64,000 nt of DNA from contig NZ_JAHHZF010000013.1 of the NCBI RefSeq assembly GCF_018729455.1, forward strand, positions 62,001-126,000, in the 5' to 3' direction. Position 1 is the stretch's first letter. Every line of letters starts with the position of its first letter. The position numbers were made by a program, and so were the translations under genes. This DNA is from Prosthecodimorpha staleyi. GTDB lineage: Bacteria; Pseudomonadota; Alphaproteobacteria; Rhizobiales; Ancalomicrobiaceae. This document shows, in pieces, positions 8,761 through 51,737 of this stretch. Under the pieces are notes generated by a model. It saw only the letters and a program-made list of their open reading frames with translations, was not told the DNA's origin and ran no database searches.

Positions 8761-8775
8761 CTCTGCCCGTGTGAT

Positions 8776-8823
8776 GGGGATGGAGCTCCCCGACAACCGC
8801 CGGAAGGCTGATAGCTCCTACTG
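8776..8823 (+). promoter_or_regulatory. Fluoride riboswitch aptamer (crcB motif)
   Basis: The segment follows the crcB-motif pattern piece by piece: GGGGATGGAGCTCCCC (5' stem and loop), GACAA linker, the CCGCC-GGAA-GGC hairpin, then the hallmark CTGATAGCTCCTACTG. GAGC/GCTC pairing between the early loop and the 3' part gives the pseudoknot. Fluoride bound through Mg2+ stabilises this fold and switches expression on. It lies between a good promoter and an intrinsic terminator, 103 bases before crcB, so control is probably by transcription termination. Confidence 0.95.
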
Positions 8824-8827
8824 CGAA

Positions 8828-8891
8828 CGGGCCCGAACGGCCCGTCGCGGTGGGAGCGCGACCGAGCGAACCCGCCGTCGGCGGGTTTTTT
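8828..8891 (+). terminator. Riboswitch-controlled intrinsic terminator
   Basis: AACCCGCC-GTC-GGCGGGTT (8869-8887) is a strong 8-bp stem running into TTTTTT at 8886-8891. A second perfect hairpin, ACGGGCC-CGAAC-GGCCCGT (8828-8846), lies between it and the aptamer. This is the expected expression platform: the terminator ends the transcript unless fluoride holds the aptamer. Confidence 0.85.
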
Positions 8892-8925
8892 GTTGCCCTT
8901 CGTCCCATTGAGCGAAAGGGTGACC

Positions 8926-9300
8926 ATGAGCTACTGGATCGTCTTCCTGGGTGCCGGCATCGGCGGAGCCTGCCGGCACGGCGTCAACCAATGGGTCCTG
9001 CGCCTGCTCGGAAGCGGATTTCCATTCGGGACGCTGATCATCAACATCGTCGGGTCCTGCCTGATGGGGCTGGTCGCCGGCTACTTCGCCCTGCGCGGAG
9101 AGGCCCCGCAGGCCGTCCGCCTCTTCCTGACCACCGGGATCCTCGGCGGCTTCACGACCTTCTCGGCCTTCTCGCTCGACGCCGCGCTGCTCTACGAGCG
9201 GGGACAGTTCGCGGCCGCGCTCGGCTACGCCTTCGGCTCGGTCGTGCTGTCCATCCTGGGGCTTTTTCTCGGGCTCTTCGTGGTCCGGCAGATCTCGTGA
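8926..9300 (+). CDS. crcB: Fluoride channel CrcB/Fluc
   Basis: A 124-residue membrane protein with four predicted helices, the standard size of a Fluc subunit. Diagnostic motifs are GGACRHGVN near the N-terminus, FGTLIINIVGSCLMG (helix 2) and TTGILGGFTTFSAFSLD (helix 3, with the TTFS phenylalanine-box region). Fluc forms antiparallel dimers that let cytoplasmic fluoride leave. The ATG at 8926 is preferred: GAAAGGGTGA precedes it, and an upstream ATG option at 8890 would start within the terminator T run. It is the first gene after the fluoride riboswitch. Confidence 0.96.
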   Translation: MSYWIVFLGAGIGGACRHGVNQWVLRLLGSGFPFGTLIINIVGSCLMGLVAGYFALRGEAPQAVRLFLTTGILGGFTTFSAFSLDAALLYERGQFAAALGYAFGSVVLSILGLFLGLFVVRQIS

Positions 9301-49263: not shown

Positions 49264-49848
49264 ATGTCGGCGAGGCGGCAGACACGCGAAAGGCTGGTCC
49301 ATGCGGCCGCCGACCAGTTCTGGGCGGTGGGCTACGAGACCGCGACGCTCGCCGCCATCGCGGCGGCGGCAGGCGTGCCGCCCGGCAACGTCTTCTATCA
49401 CTTCCCGACCAAGGCCGATCTCGCCCGCGCGGTGACGGCGCTGTTCGTGGCCGAGGTCGCCGGGACCCTGGCCGAGATCGACCGGCGCGGCGGCGATCCG
49501 GCCCGACGCATCGCCGCCTTCTTCGACCTCATCGCCGATACGGTCGTCTCGCGGGTGGCGCGCGGCTGTCCGATCGCCCGGGCGACGCGGGACTTTCCGG
49601 CCGATGCCGAGAGCGGCGGGCCCGCGCAGGTGTTTCGCATCATGATCGGCTGGCTCGCGGCGCGCCTCGCCGAGGCCGGGCGGACCGATGCCGAGGCGGC
49701 CGCGCGCTCGGCGCTGGCGCGCTGGCAGGGGGCCATCGTGCTGGCGGCAGGGCTCGGCGACGGGGCCATCCTGGCGACCGAGATCGCCGCCCTGCGCGCG
49801 GAATTCGGCGCGCCGGCCGCAGCGCCGGCGGTCATCACATCGATTTGA
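49264..49848 (+). CDS. TetR/AcrR-family transcriptional regulator
   Basis: A 194-residue TetR protein: HTH at residues 6-52 (RERLVHAAADQFWAVGYE, then TLAAIAAAAGVPPGNVFYHF), with the YHFPTKADLARAV motif. The ligand domain contains a single Cys (RGCPIAR). The ATG at 49264 follows GGGGAGGCTGTCC. It is divergent from the histidine kinase gene across 201 bases. The next genes (small RNA, xthA) are not typical TetR targets, so it may repress itself or the kinase. Confidence 0.88.
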   Translation: MSARRQTRERLVHAAADQFWAVGYETATLAAIAAAAGVPPGNVFYHFPTKADLARAVTALFVAEVAGTLAEIDRRGGDPARRIAAFFDLIADTVVSRVARGCPIARATRDFPADAESGGPAQVFRIMIGWLAARLAEAGRTDAEAAARSALARWQGAIVLAAGLGDGAILATEIAALRAEFGAPAAAPAVITSI

Positions 49849-49926
49849 GGCGGATCCGCCGTCTCGATGGCGGATGTCAGCTTTCTGTAATCTTGAAATG
49901 GCCAGACCGCACGCCACATTGACGCC
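49849..49926 (+). promoter_or_regulatory. Promoter region of the predicted small RNA
   Basis: CTTGAA (49892-49897) and CACATT (49915-49920) are separated by 17 bases and match the alphaproteobacterial -35/-10 pattern reasonably well. Transcription would begin at about 49927-49930, at the foot of the first stem of the RNA. No gene is seen here. Confidence 0.45.
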
Positions 49927-50065
49927 TACAGGCGGTCGCCCGTTGTTCGGTCGTGTCCCCCGTCGCACCGAGGGCGATCCGCCGCGATCGGTGTTCCCTC
50001 CCGATCGGCGCGTCCGCAAGGCCGCGCGAGCGCTCCGTCTCCCCCCGGGACGGAGCGCTTTCCTT
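49927..50065 (+). ncRNA. Predicted structured small RNA with three C-rich loops
   Basis: About 139 nt with three consecutive stems. Stem 1: GGCGGTCGCCC (49931-49941) pairs with GGGCGATCCGCC (49972-49983) with one bulge and encloses a small hairpin (CGGT 49948-51 with ACCG 49967-70) that shows TCCCCC in its loop. Stem 2: CGATCGG (49985-49991) pairs with CCGATCG (50001-50007), loop TGTTCCCTC. Stem 3: AGCGCTCCGTC (50029-50039) pairs with GACGGAGCGCT (50049-50059), loop TCCCCCCGG, then TTTCCTT, an intrinsic terminator. C-rich loops able to pair with Shine-Dalgarno sequences are typical of several trans-acting alphaproteobacterial RNAs. No named family is assigned. Confidence 0.7.
50029..50065 (+). 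terminator. Intrinsic terminator ending the small RNA
   Basis: Perfect 11-bp stem, arms 50029-50039 and 50049-50059, nine-base loop, followed by TTTCCTT. It stands alone between the TetR gene (ends 49848) and xthA (starts 50292), so it ends a transcript that does not code for protein. The following 50066-50291 shows nothing further. Confidence 0.75.
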
Positions 50066-50291
50066 ATCCGCCGAAGGGGCTCTGCGGCGGGGCCGGGGGC
50101 GGTGGCCGCGGGGCGGCCGGCGGACGGGGATCCGGCACCGGGTCCGGTCGGCGAGATACCGGTGCATGCGCGCGGCTTCCCGCTCGGCCGGCGATTCCCT
50201 CAGGCTGCGGGATGGTTTAGGGTCCGGGCAAATCCTGATGCTTGCGGCCGCCTGCGGCCGTCAGCCCCGTGGCGCCGATCCGAGATCCTGC

Positions 50292-51101
50292 ATGGCCCGT
50301 TCCTTCACACTCGCCACCTGGAACATCAATTCCGTCCGCATCCGCACCGACCTGGTCGAAAGGCTGGCGGCGGAGCGTGCGCCGGACGTGCTCTGCCTGC
50401 AGGAGATCAAGTGCCCGGAGGCGAATTTCCCGTCATCGGTCTTCCGCAAGCTCGGCTATGTCCATCAGGCGATCAACGGCCAGAAGGGCTATCACGGCGT
50501 CGCCGTGCTCTCGCGGCTGCCCTTCGCGGCGATCGACCGGCGCGGCTTCTGCGACAAGGGCGACGCGCGCCACATCGCGGTGACCGTCGACGACGGCGGC
50601 GACGGGGTCGAGATCCACAATCTCTATGTCCCGGCCGGCGGCGACGAACCGGACGCGACCCTCAACGAGAAGTTCGCCCACAAGCTCCAGTTCCTCGACG
50701 AGATGGCCGCATGGATCGGCAAGGCGCCGGCCGGTCGCGCCTCGATCGTGGTCGGCGATCTCAACATCGCGCCGCTCGAGCACGATGTCTGGTCGCACAA
50801 GCAGCTTCTCGGCGTGGTCAGCCACACCCCGGTCGAGACCGCCGCCCTGGAGGCGATCCGCACCGGCGGCGGCTGGGTCGACGCCATGCGCAGCCACATC
50901 CCCGTGCCGCAGAAGCTCTACACGTGGTGGAGCTACCGCTCGGCCGACTGGTCCGCCGCCGACAAGGGCCGCCGCCTGGACCATGTCTGGGCCTGCCCGG
51001 CCGTCGCCCCGCGCGTCGCCGCGATCGAGGTCTTGCGCGCGGCGCGCGGCTGGGATCGTCCGTCCGACCATGTCCCGGTGATCGCCCGCATCGAACGGTG
51101 A
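50292..51101 (+). CDS. xth: Exodeoxyribonuclease III
   Basis: A 269-residue AP endonuclease/exonuclease. Motifs in order: LATWNINSVR, VLCLQEIKCPE (catalytic Glu), GYHGVAVLSRL, IVVGDLNIAPLEHDVW (Asp-Asn), RRLDHVWA and the closing SDHVPVIA with the general-base His. It cuts DNA 5' to abasic sites and degrades 3' ends in base-excision repair. The ATG at 50292 is the natural start (MARSFTLATWN); the longer frame upstream runs through the small RNA. It stands alone. Confidence 0.96.
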   Translation: MARSFTLATWNINSVRIRTDLVERLAAERAPDVLCLQEIKCPEANFPSSVFRKLGYVHQAINGQKGYHGVAVLSRLPFAAIDRRGFCDKGDARHIAVTVDDGGDGVEIHNLYVPAGGDEPDATLNEKFAHKLQFLDEMAAWIGKAPAGRASIVVGDLNIAPLEHDVWSHKQLLGVVSHTPVETAALEAIRTGGGWVDAMRSHIPVPQKLYTWWSYRSADWSAADKGRRLDHVWACPAVAPRVAAIEVLRAARGWDRPSDHVPVIARIER

Positions 51102-51200: not shown

Positions 51201-51737
51201 ATGGACTACAAGGCCCTCAGCCGGAGCGTCGCCCACGCGCTGCGCCACGAGCCCTGGCTCTACGAGCTGGAACTGGACGCGGCCGGCGCGGTCGCGGTTG
51301 CGGACCTGATCGCGGCCCTGAAGCGCGAGCGGCCGGACTGGCGCGATCTCGGCCCCGGCGATCTCGACACCATGCTGGCGACGGCGTCCAAGACCCGCTT
51401 CGCGATCGAGCACGGACGCATCCGCGCCATCTACGGCCATTCGCTGCCGCAGCGGCTGGAGCGGGTCGCCCTGGCGCCGCCGGCGATCCTGTTCCACGGC
51501 ACCTCGCCCGAGGCGGCGGCGGCGATCCGCGCCGACGGTCTCCGGCCGATGGGCCGCCAGTATGTCCATCTCTCGACCGACCGGGCGACCGCCGTCGAGG
51601 TCGGCCGGCGCAAGGCCGACGCGCCCGTGATCCTGACCGTCGCCGCCGGCGAGGCCGCGGCCGCCGGCCATCCCTTCTATGCCGGCCACGACAAGGTCTG
51701 GCTCGCCGACCACGTCCCGCCGCAATTCATCGCCTGA
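51201..51737 (+). CDS. kptA: RNA 2'-phosphotransferase KptA/Tpt1
   Basis: A 178-residue KptA. The N-terminal wing-helix part has SRSVAHALRHEPWLYEL (catalytic Arg-His), followed by RFAIEHGRIRAIYGHS, and the ADP-ribosyl-transfer half has FHGTSPEAAAAI, QYVHLSTD and the C-terminal VWLADHVPPQFI. In fungi Tpt1 removes the 2'-phosphate left by tRNA splicing, making ADP-ribose cyclic phosphate from NAD+; its role in bacteria is unknown, since they lack that splicing. GGGAGGATCG precedes the ATG. It stands alone 99 bases after xthA. Confidence 0.95.
   Translation: MDYKALSRSVAHALRHEPWLYELELDAAGAVAVADLIAALKRERPDWRDLGPGDLDTMLATASKTRFAIEHGRIRAIYGHSLPQRLERVALAPPAILFHGTSPEAAAAIRADGLRPMGRQYVHLSTDRATAVEVGRRKADAPVILTVAAGEAAAAGHPFYAGHDKVWLADHVPPQFIA

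Follow-up and report, generated by a model that had tools for sequence, protein, structure and literature searches.

In the 64,000-nucleotide stretch of Prosthecodimorpha staleyi DNA analysed here (contig NZ_JAHHZF010000013.1, positions 62,001 to 126,000; hereafter the window), a gene-free interval folds into hairpins with C-rich loops, which raises the question whether it encodes a small regulatory RNA and, if so, to which kind this RNA belongs. By taxonomy, Prosthecodimorpha is placed in the Ancalomicrobiaceae, Hyphomicrobiales. A first-pass annotation had located the interval (49849-50291) between a TetR gene and xthA, and Pfam identified both neighbours: a TetR regulator gene on the 5' side (49264-49848, + strand; TetR_N, 3.8e-13) and, on the 3' side, a gene of the Exo_endo_phos family (50292-51101, + strand; 2.3e-27), which was named xthA (exonuclease III) on the basis of tblastn relatives and synteny. 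The best segment of the window XthA is 100% identical to Prosthecomicrobium hirschii, followed by 66% for the next one, among the best 80 of 97 relatives. Directly 3' of xthA lies a Tpt1/KptA RNA 2'-phosphotransferase gene (51201-51737, + strand; Pfam 2.2e-31), an unexpected neighbour in DNA repair. Elsewhere in the window, a fluoride riboswitch (RF01734, 49.8 bits) is present at 8767-8827 (+ strand), just 5' of an ORF (8890-9300) that, judged by eye, looks like CrcB/FluC by sequence.

The putative small RNA gene extends from 49928 to 50067 on the + strand (about 140 nt), its start being derived from the promoter position. The segment originally proposed has a minimum free energy (MFE) of -81.4 kcal/mol compared to a mean of -59.3 (sd 3.9) for shuffled sequences (z -5.69), and none of 200 dinucleotide shuffles was as stable. 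The three stems with C-rich loops described in the first-pass annotation are present where it had placed them, but they are part of a set of four hairpins, the one at 50008-50027 having been overlooked. Stem-loop 1 (49931-49983) indeed contains the 11-bp stem noticed before; this basal stem, however, bears an apical stem, and the C-run (CCCCCGUC) sits in the apical loop. It is supported by the MFE fold and by covariation of the basal stem. Stem-loop 2 (49985-50007) has a 7-bp stem and a loop with UUCCCUCCC, a probable target-pairing seed of the anti-Shine-Dalgarno type. Stem-loop 3 (50008-50027) is a small GCGC hairpin and stem-loop 4 (50028-50067) a terminator-like hairpin of 14 pairs in the window fold, with a C-rich loop, both being supported by the MFE fold and covariation. 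The T-rich tail noted earlier, UUUCCUU, is only moderately U-rich, and a pattern scan for terminators found none at the interval. At another locus, L153, the tail reads UUUUUUU. One member (L161:1439-1665, - strand) is 227 nt long, the stem-loop 3 region ahead of its terminator being enlarged by about 80 bases.

Upstream of the predicted start, a promoter-like element can be read from the sequence at 49892-49920 (+ strand), with the -35 CTTGAA (49892-49897) and the -10 CACATT (49915-49920) separated by 17 nt, in line with the -35/-10 pair proposed earlier and its suitable distance. CTTG is the usual alphaproteobacterial -35; a promoter scan tuned to the E. coli consensus (TTGACA/TATAAT) found no promoter at the interval. 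Of the 24 aligned loci, 21, the window included, have a -35 of the CTTG/TTGA type 33-38 nt 5' of the RNA, compared to 3.1% of 9600 random 60-mers drawn from the same 24 loci. Judged from these sequence features, a self-standing small RNA with its own putative promoter and terminator is strongly supported.

To find relatives, a covariance model (R1) was built from the two closest genomes only. It matched 26 of 150 genomes at E<=1 and 22 of 150 at E<=6e-5, the own genome and two congeners included. Alignment A4 combines 24 sequences, i.e. 22 whole-genome loci and the named loci L055 and L094, the weak R1 matches L158-L162 being omitted, and from these 24 sequences the model was rebuilt (R2). This covariance modelling, suggested in the first-pass annotation, did yield a family: the 24-sequence model R2 matches, at E<=0.01, 117 of 297 order genomes, some of which had supplied its sequences, as well as 35 of 289 genomes in a class sample and, at E<=0.05, 37 of 40 genomes in the order of genome G307, which consists of a single family of 40 genomes. 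Under strict filters, 180 of the 297 order genomes and 254 of the 289 class genomes are without an R2 match. In the window's own family, 3 of 15 genomes have a clear copy; the other 12 gave no clear match and one weak one (G007, E=0.0027 and 0.0089). The window's genome itself has a single clear copy, the next R2 match having E=3.1. At the DNA level, similarity reaches clearly only three species of the genus, and other matches span 28-42 bases.

Two further alignments were made. A5 has 72 rows that were selected from the available loci, all 72 sources matching R2, and is not a census: L158 and L162 (no lolA or xthA match), near-duplicates, later-ranked loci and some named loci with weaker matches (e.g. 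L076, L081, L084, L096 and L133) were omitted. A6 consists of 22 of 30 xthA loci from the family of genome G574; its row L243 (+ strand, E=0.098) lies antisense to the true match and is still included in the 22-row counts. A4 and A5 were fitted to the covariance model. In A4, so fitted, 40 of 45 pairs show double-sided changes compared to 26.2 in shuffles, and 93% of cells pair, dropping to 29-47% in slid controls; in the larger model-fitted alignment all 45 pairs are changed on both sides. In stem-loop 2, a six-pair helix, every pair shows double changes and 98.8% of cells are paired; in the 11-pair helix of stem-loop 4, all cells of the 24 rows are paired and 11/11 pairs are changed on both sides. 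The basal stem of stem-loop 1 and stem-loop 3 also covary in A4, and in genome G002, the third species of the genus, stem 1 has already been rebuilt with other bases on both sides. Because A4 was fitted to the model, the same 24 sequences were realigned with MAFFT without structure (A7). On this structure-blind alignment, RNAalifold recovers the apex of stem-loop 1, stem-loop 2 and the terminator, with double changes in 15 of 25 predicted pairs; the base of stem-loop 1 and stem-loop 3 are not recovered from these 24 sequences. The stem-conserving substitutions on which the first-pass annotation had staked its proposal are thus present in both kinds of alignment, and the structure, as read from sequence comparison, exceeds chance. 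The segment is very probably a real small RNA gene.

The genomic position of the RNA recurs. Neighbours of the A5 rows were called by tblastn with LolA and XthA in flanks of mostly 1.5 kb, and some neighbour absences are therefore a limit of the data. Within 1 kb, lolA precedes and xthA follows the RNA in 26 of the 72 rows, 27 have xthA only, 13 lolA only and 6 neither, so that 66 of 72 lie near at least one of these genes. Leaving out the 10 rows that were fetched through xthA, the numbers for the remaining 62 are 19 with both, 27 with xthA only, 10 with lolA only and 6 with neither. The TetR gene of the window occupies the place where lolA is found in 39 of 72 aligned members; no lolA match was obtained in loci L001-L003, the window having tetR instead, and in G002 another gene, not tetR, is at the upstream position. 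Starting from the protein, 80 named xthA loci were collected (the best 80 of 97 XthA relatives), and 15 of these have an R2 match (E<0.005) on the same strand at most 2 kb upstream of xthA, with Methylocella silvestris, Marinicaulis, Aquisalinus and Elioraea rosea among the records. None of 15 loci titled Rhizobium, Aureimonas or Aurantimonas had an R2 match at E<=1 within 1 kb upstream of xthA. In the G574 family, which we suspect to be sphingomonads and which is outside the build set of model R3, 30 xthA loci were obtained from 39 genomes with xthA. R3 matches 22 of these 30 at E<0.05, all at most 140 nt upstream of xthA; the other 8 have no R3 match at E<0.05, and no match is found elsewhere in the 110,718 bases. 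Downstream of the RNA at L149 are, on the other strand, a response regulator gene and one for cyclic-nucleotide binding, two families that are also found beyond xthA in the window. Together, these data define a conserved four-hairpin RNA that, by sequence, has a promoter-like element and a terminator-like hairpin and is kept at lolA-xth in many Alphaproteobacteria.

The loops point to how such an RNA might act. All three C-rich loops had been called complementary to the Shine-Dalgarno sequence, a claim that holds for loop 2, which contains the core CCUCC and is the only one of the three to do so; loop 1 is conserved as CCCCCG, CCCCCGUC being identical in 24/24 A4 rows, and loop 3, in the terminator hairpin, is often lost. 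As simple duplexes, calculated without a control, loop 2 pairs with a GGGAGG site at -13.4 kcal/mol and loops 1 and 3 at -9.4 and -9.8, whereas a GGGGG site pairs better with loops 3 and 1 (-12.3 and -11.2) than with loop 2 (-9.0); with GGAGG, loop 1 pairs poorly (-5.0). The stem-loop 2 motif CC[CU]UCCC occurs in 18/24 A4, 53/72 A5 and 21/22 A6 rows, a C-run in the 5' part in 24/24, 66/72 and 2/22, and the C-run of the terminator loop in 18/24, 48/72 and 5/22, one A6 row being antisense in each count. By pattern, the stem-loop 2 motif is thus missing in 6 of 24 close members and the stem-loop 1 C-run in 20 of 22 A6 rows. Loci L055, L140, L149, L155 and L156 keep the CCCCCG loop of stem-loop 1 and have no CCCUCCC loop in stem-loop 2; in rows from the G574 family it is the other way round. 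In the class sample, L183-L186 are members of 114-118 nt, nearer to RusT (see below) in size, with CCCC in the loop of the second hairpin and no stem-loop 1 C-run. Since the loop motifs differ between the A4, A5 and A6 rows, different lineages appear to lean on different loops. An anti-Shine-Dalgarno motif fits a great many start regions.

Instead of a gene of its own, the RNA could be the 5' leader of xthA, an attenuator or riboswitch whose terminator hairpin controls read-through into xthA. A leader is followed directly, on the same strand, by the gene it controls, as is the case in the window and, within 1 kb, in 53 of the 72 aligned rows; in a quarter of the 74 A5 and A6 cases of this arrangement, at most 50 nt (minimum 9) separate the RNA from the XthA match. 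In the remaining 19 rows, however, the first 1 kb downstream is free of xthA: in 10 the RNA follows lolA without an xthA match in the 967-1500 downstream bases (L138, L145, L149, L150, L154 and L157 are loci of this kind), in three more xthA is 1.5-1.8 kb away and 6 have neither gene within 1 kb. At L084 (titled Pleomorphomonas), the R2 match (E=2.7e-5) even lies downstream of xthA on the opposite strand, and in the window 224 nt separate the RNA from the start of xthA. Because of the 10 rows that follow lolA without xthA in the downstream flank, we reject the leader, which we hold to be improbable. Less probable by far is a G+C-rich structured intergenic element with no function in regulation, for instance a terminator region or an element acting at the DNA level: the window is indeed G+C-rich, but covariation in stem-loops 1-4, an invariant loop, a conserved promoter position, the single copy and the recurrent locus all speak against an inert element.

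No Rfam 15 family reached its threshold on the window RNA or on 20 homologue loci, in line with the first-pass annotation, in which no named family could be assigned. Nine sub-threshold Rfam matches were found in the 20 homologue loci, three of which overlap the RNA on its own strand. The Brucella sRNA BASRCI408 on L138 (34.3 of 398 bits, E=3.4e-5), ctRNA_pGA1 on L146 (26 of 45 bits) and tfoR on L154 (22 of 70 bits), the latter two with E 0.5-0.6, were set aside as falling short of their thresholds; the BASRCI408 match (L138:1260-1543, - strand) covers about the last 43 nt of the RNA and some 240 nt downstream. At the window, Sr006 (15.6 of 100 bits, E=5.4) was rejected, and the better of the two sub-threshold signals is ar7 (RF02342), which matches over its full length with 20.3 bits. 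The earlier comparison with ar-type RNAs was thus a useful lead; RusT had not been named in it. From its neighbours, polA and a MarR gene, ar7 is probably identical to SmelC023 (Smr7C), which adjoins DNA polymerase I (polA) and a MarR gene according to the available text of PMC3927594.

The window RNA might accordingly be a diverged ar7 rather than a relative of RusT. As far as described in that text, SmelC023 has four hairpins with two conserved middle loops (PMC3927594) and a terminator, and the ar7 loop 1 (GUCCCCCG) is close to that of the window. Model R2 gives E=0.0017 and 0.0033 on the two over-threshold ar7 loci, and R3 matches both along its full length with E 1.4e-5 and 5e-4; among 40 loci searched with R3 (30 obtained via ar7 and 10 via suhB), a sub-threshold ar7 locus (L024) also scores E=7.7e-5. 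Against this, the 20.3 bits at the window compare with a gathering threshold of 60 bits, and E is 0.07 even for 501 bases; a whole-genome ar7 search pointed to two other places in the window's genome, at 20.2 and 17.7 bits, without listing the window RNA; and the 20 homologue loci have no ar7 match at E<=1. Moreover, ar7 lies divergent from polA in L014 and L015 (polA being recognised by eye in the ORF translations) and not at lolA-xthA, whereas the window RNA lies between tetR and xthA, and not beside polA and a MarR gene as in the available description of SmelC023. Because the score is below threshold, membership of ar7 was rejected, and we consider a diverged ar7 that is not related to RusT to be quite unlikely. 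The likeness between R3 and ar7 may reflect common descent or convergence, and ar7 may be a distant relative of the window RNA.

The suhB family (RF00519), which we take to be alpha-r8, has ten matches at E<=1 on several contigs of the window's genome, four of them over threshold, and other C-rich alphaproteobacterial sRNAs are therefore present there. Like the alpha-r8 RNAs MmgR and SisA-D, as partly described in PMC12559287, the window RNA has a C-rich anti-Shine-Dalgarno core; the suhB loci are, however, separate from it, and R3 has no clear match in the ten suhB loci (best E=0.24). Because RF00519 does not match at the window, suhB was rejected. SmelA075 and SmelA099 also have several hairpins with C-rich loops (CCUCCUCCC), but, in the available text of PMC3927594, each of their loops carries a similar anti-Shine-Dalgarno motif, whereas the loops in the window are unlike one another, with the core in loop 2 only. 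GspR (reported, in the available description, in Sinorhizobium only, between SMc03844 and SMc03845) and PmaR (in the available description, in Agrobacterium and one Rhizobium strain) were set aside.

A close parallel is RusT (CCNA_R0199) of Caulobacter crescentus, the only relevant report found in the literature on a small RNA at lolA/xthA. In the available text of PMC11005374, RusT is a 118-nt Hfq-bound RNA encoded between lolA and xth, with four stem-loops of which the last is the terminator, and with an Hfq contact in stem-loop 3. Through the conserved loop of stem-loop 2 (C53) it pairs with mRNAs of TonB-dependent receptors, which are among the transporters it represses; it is induced by iron chelation (iron starvation) or zinc and controlled by NtrX, and homologues are named in related Caulobacteraceae, where it is conserved (PMC11005374, same text). 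The window family resembles this description in its locus, 26 of 72 rows having both genes and 66 at least one within 1 kb; in its four stem-loops with the terminator last, which the window shows by fold and covariation with an only moderately U-rich tail; and in a conserved stem-loop 2 loop, anti-Shine-Dalgarno by sequence, which may correspond to the RusT pairing site. It differs in length (about 140 nt) and, in the window, in having tetR and no lolA next to xthA. The comparison with RusT was made by its description, and the link rests on locus and architecture. By this analogy, the window RNA is most likely a relative of RusT, and we regard a small RNA gene of the RusT type, acting in trans, as a likely reading, with good though not full confidence.

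Such an RNA would be transcribed from about 49928 to 50067 and would bind Hfq around stem-loop 3 and its terminator, the stem-loop 3 position being taken over from RusT. The hfq gene is present in the window's genome; in an Hfq search of the 289-genome class sample, none of the matches listed was more than 89% identical to the 6GWK sequence. Stem-loop 2, and perhaps also stem-loop 1, would be presented to G-rich ribosome-binding regions of mRNAs, and pairing there together with Hfq would block translation, a reading that follows naturally from RusT as the example already worked out. By the same analogy, transporters of the outer membrane may be its targets and iron shortage, relayed by NtrYX, its signal, these two being the least certain steps.

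Small RNAs of this kind are known already; what is new is the breadth of the family, best described as found in many Alphaproteobacteria and unrecognised by Rfam, together with a possible connection of RusT to ar7. We give even chances to a wider reading in which RusT, the ar7 RNA of Rhizobiaceae and those RNAs that other orders carry at lolA-xth form one ancient class-wide small RNA family that Rfam does not recognise. Such an RNA would be a core regulator of the outer membrane in Alphaproteobacteria, acting at the post-transcriptional level; many lineages would have retained it at lolA-xth, and in the rhizobial lineage it would have moved to polA. The available text describes RusT as conserved in the Caulobacteraceae; should the family prove real throughout the class, this one characterised small RNA would gain well over 100 testable relatives, for which covariance models exist and in which the conserved loops indicate the bases to mutate, and a small RNA gene would have kept its neighbours even between distant alphaproteobacterial groups.
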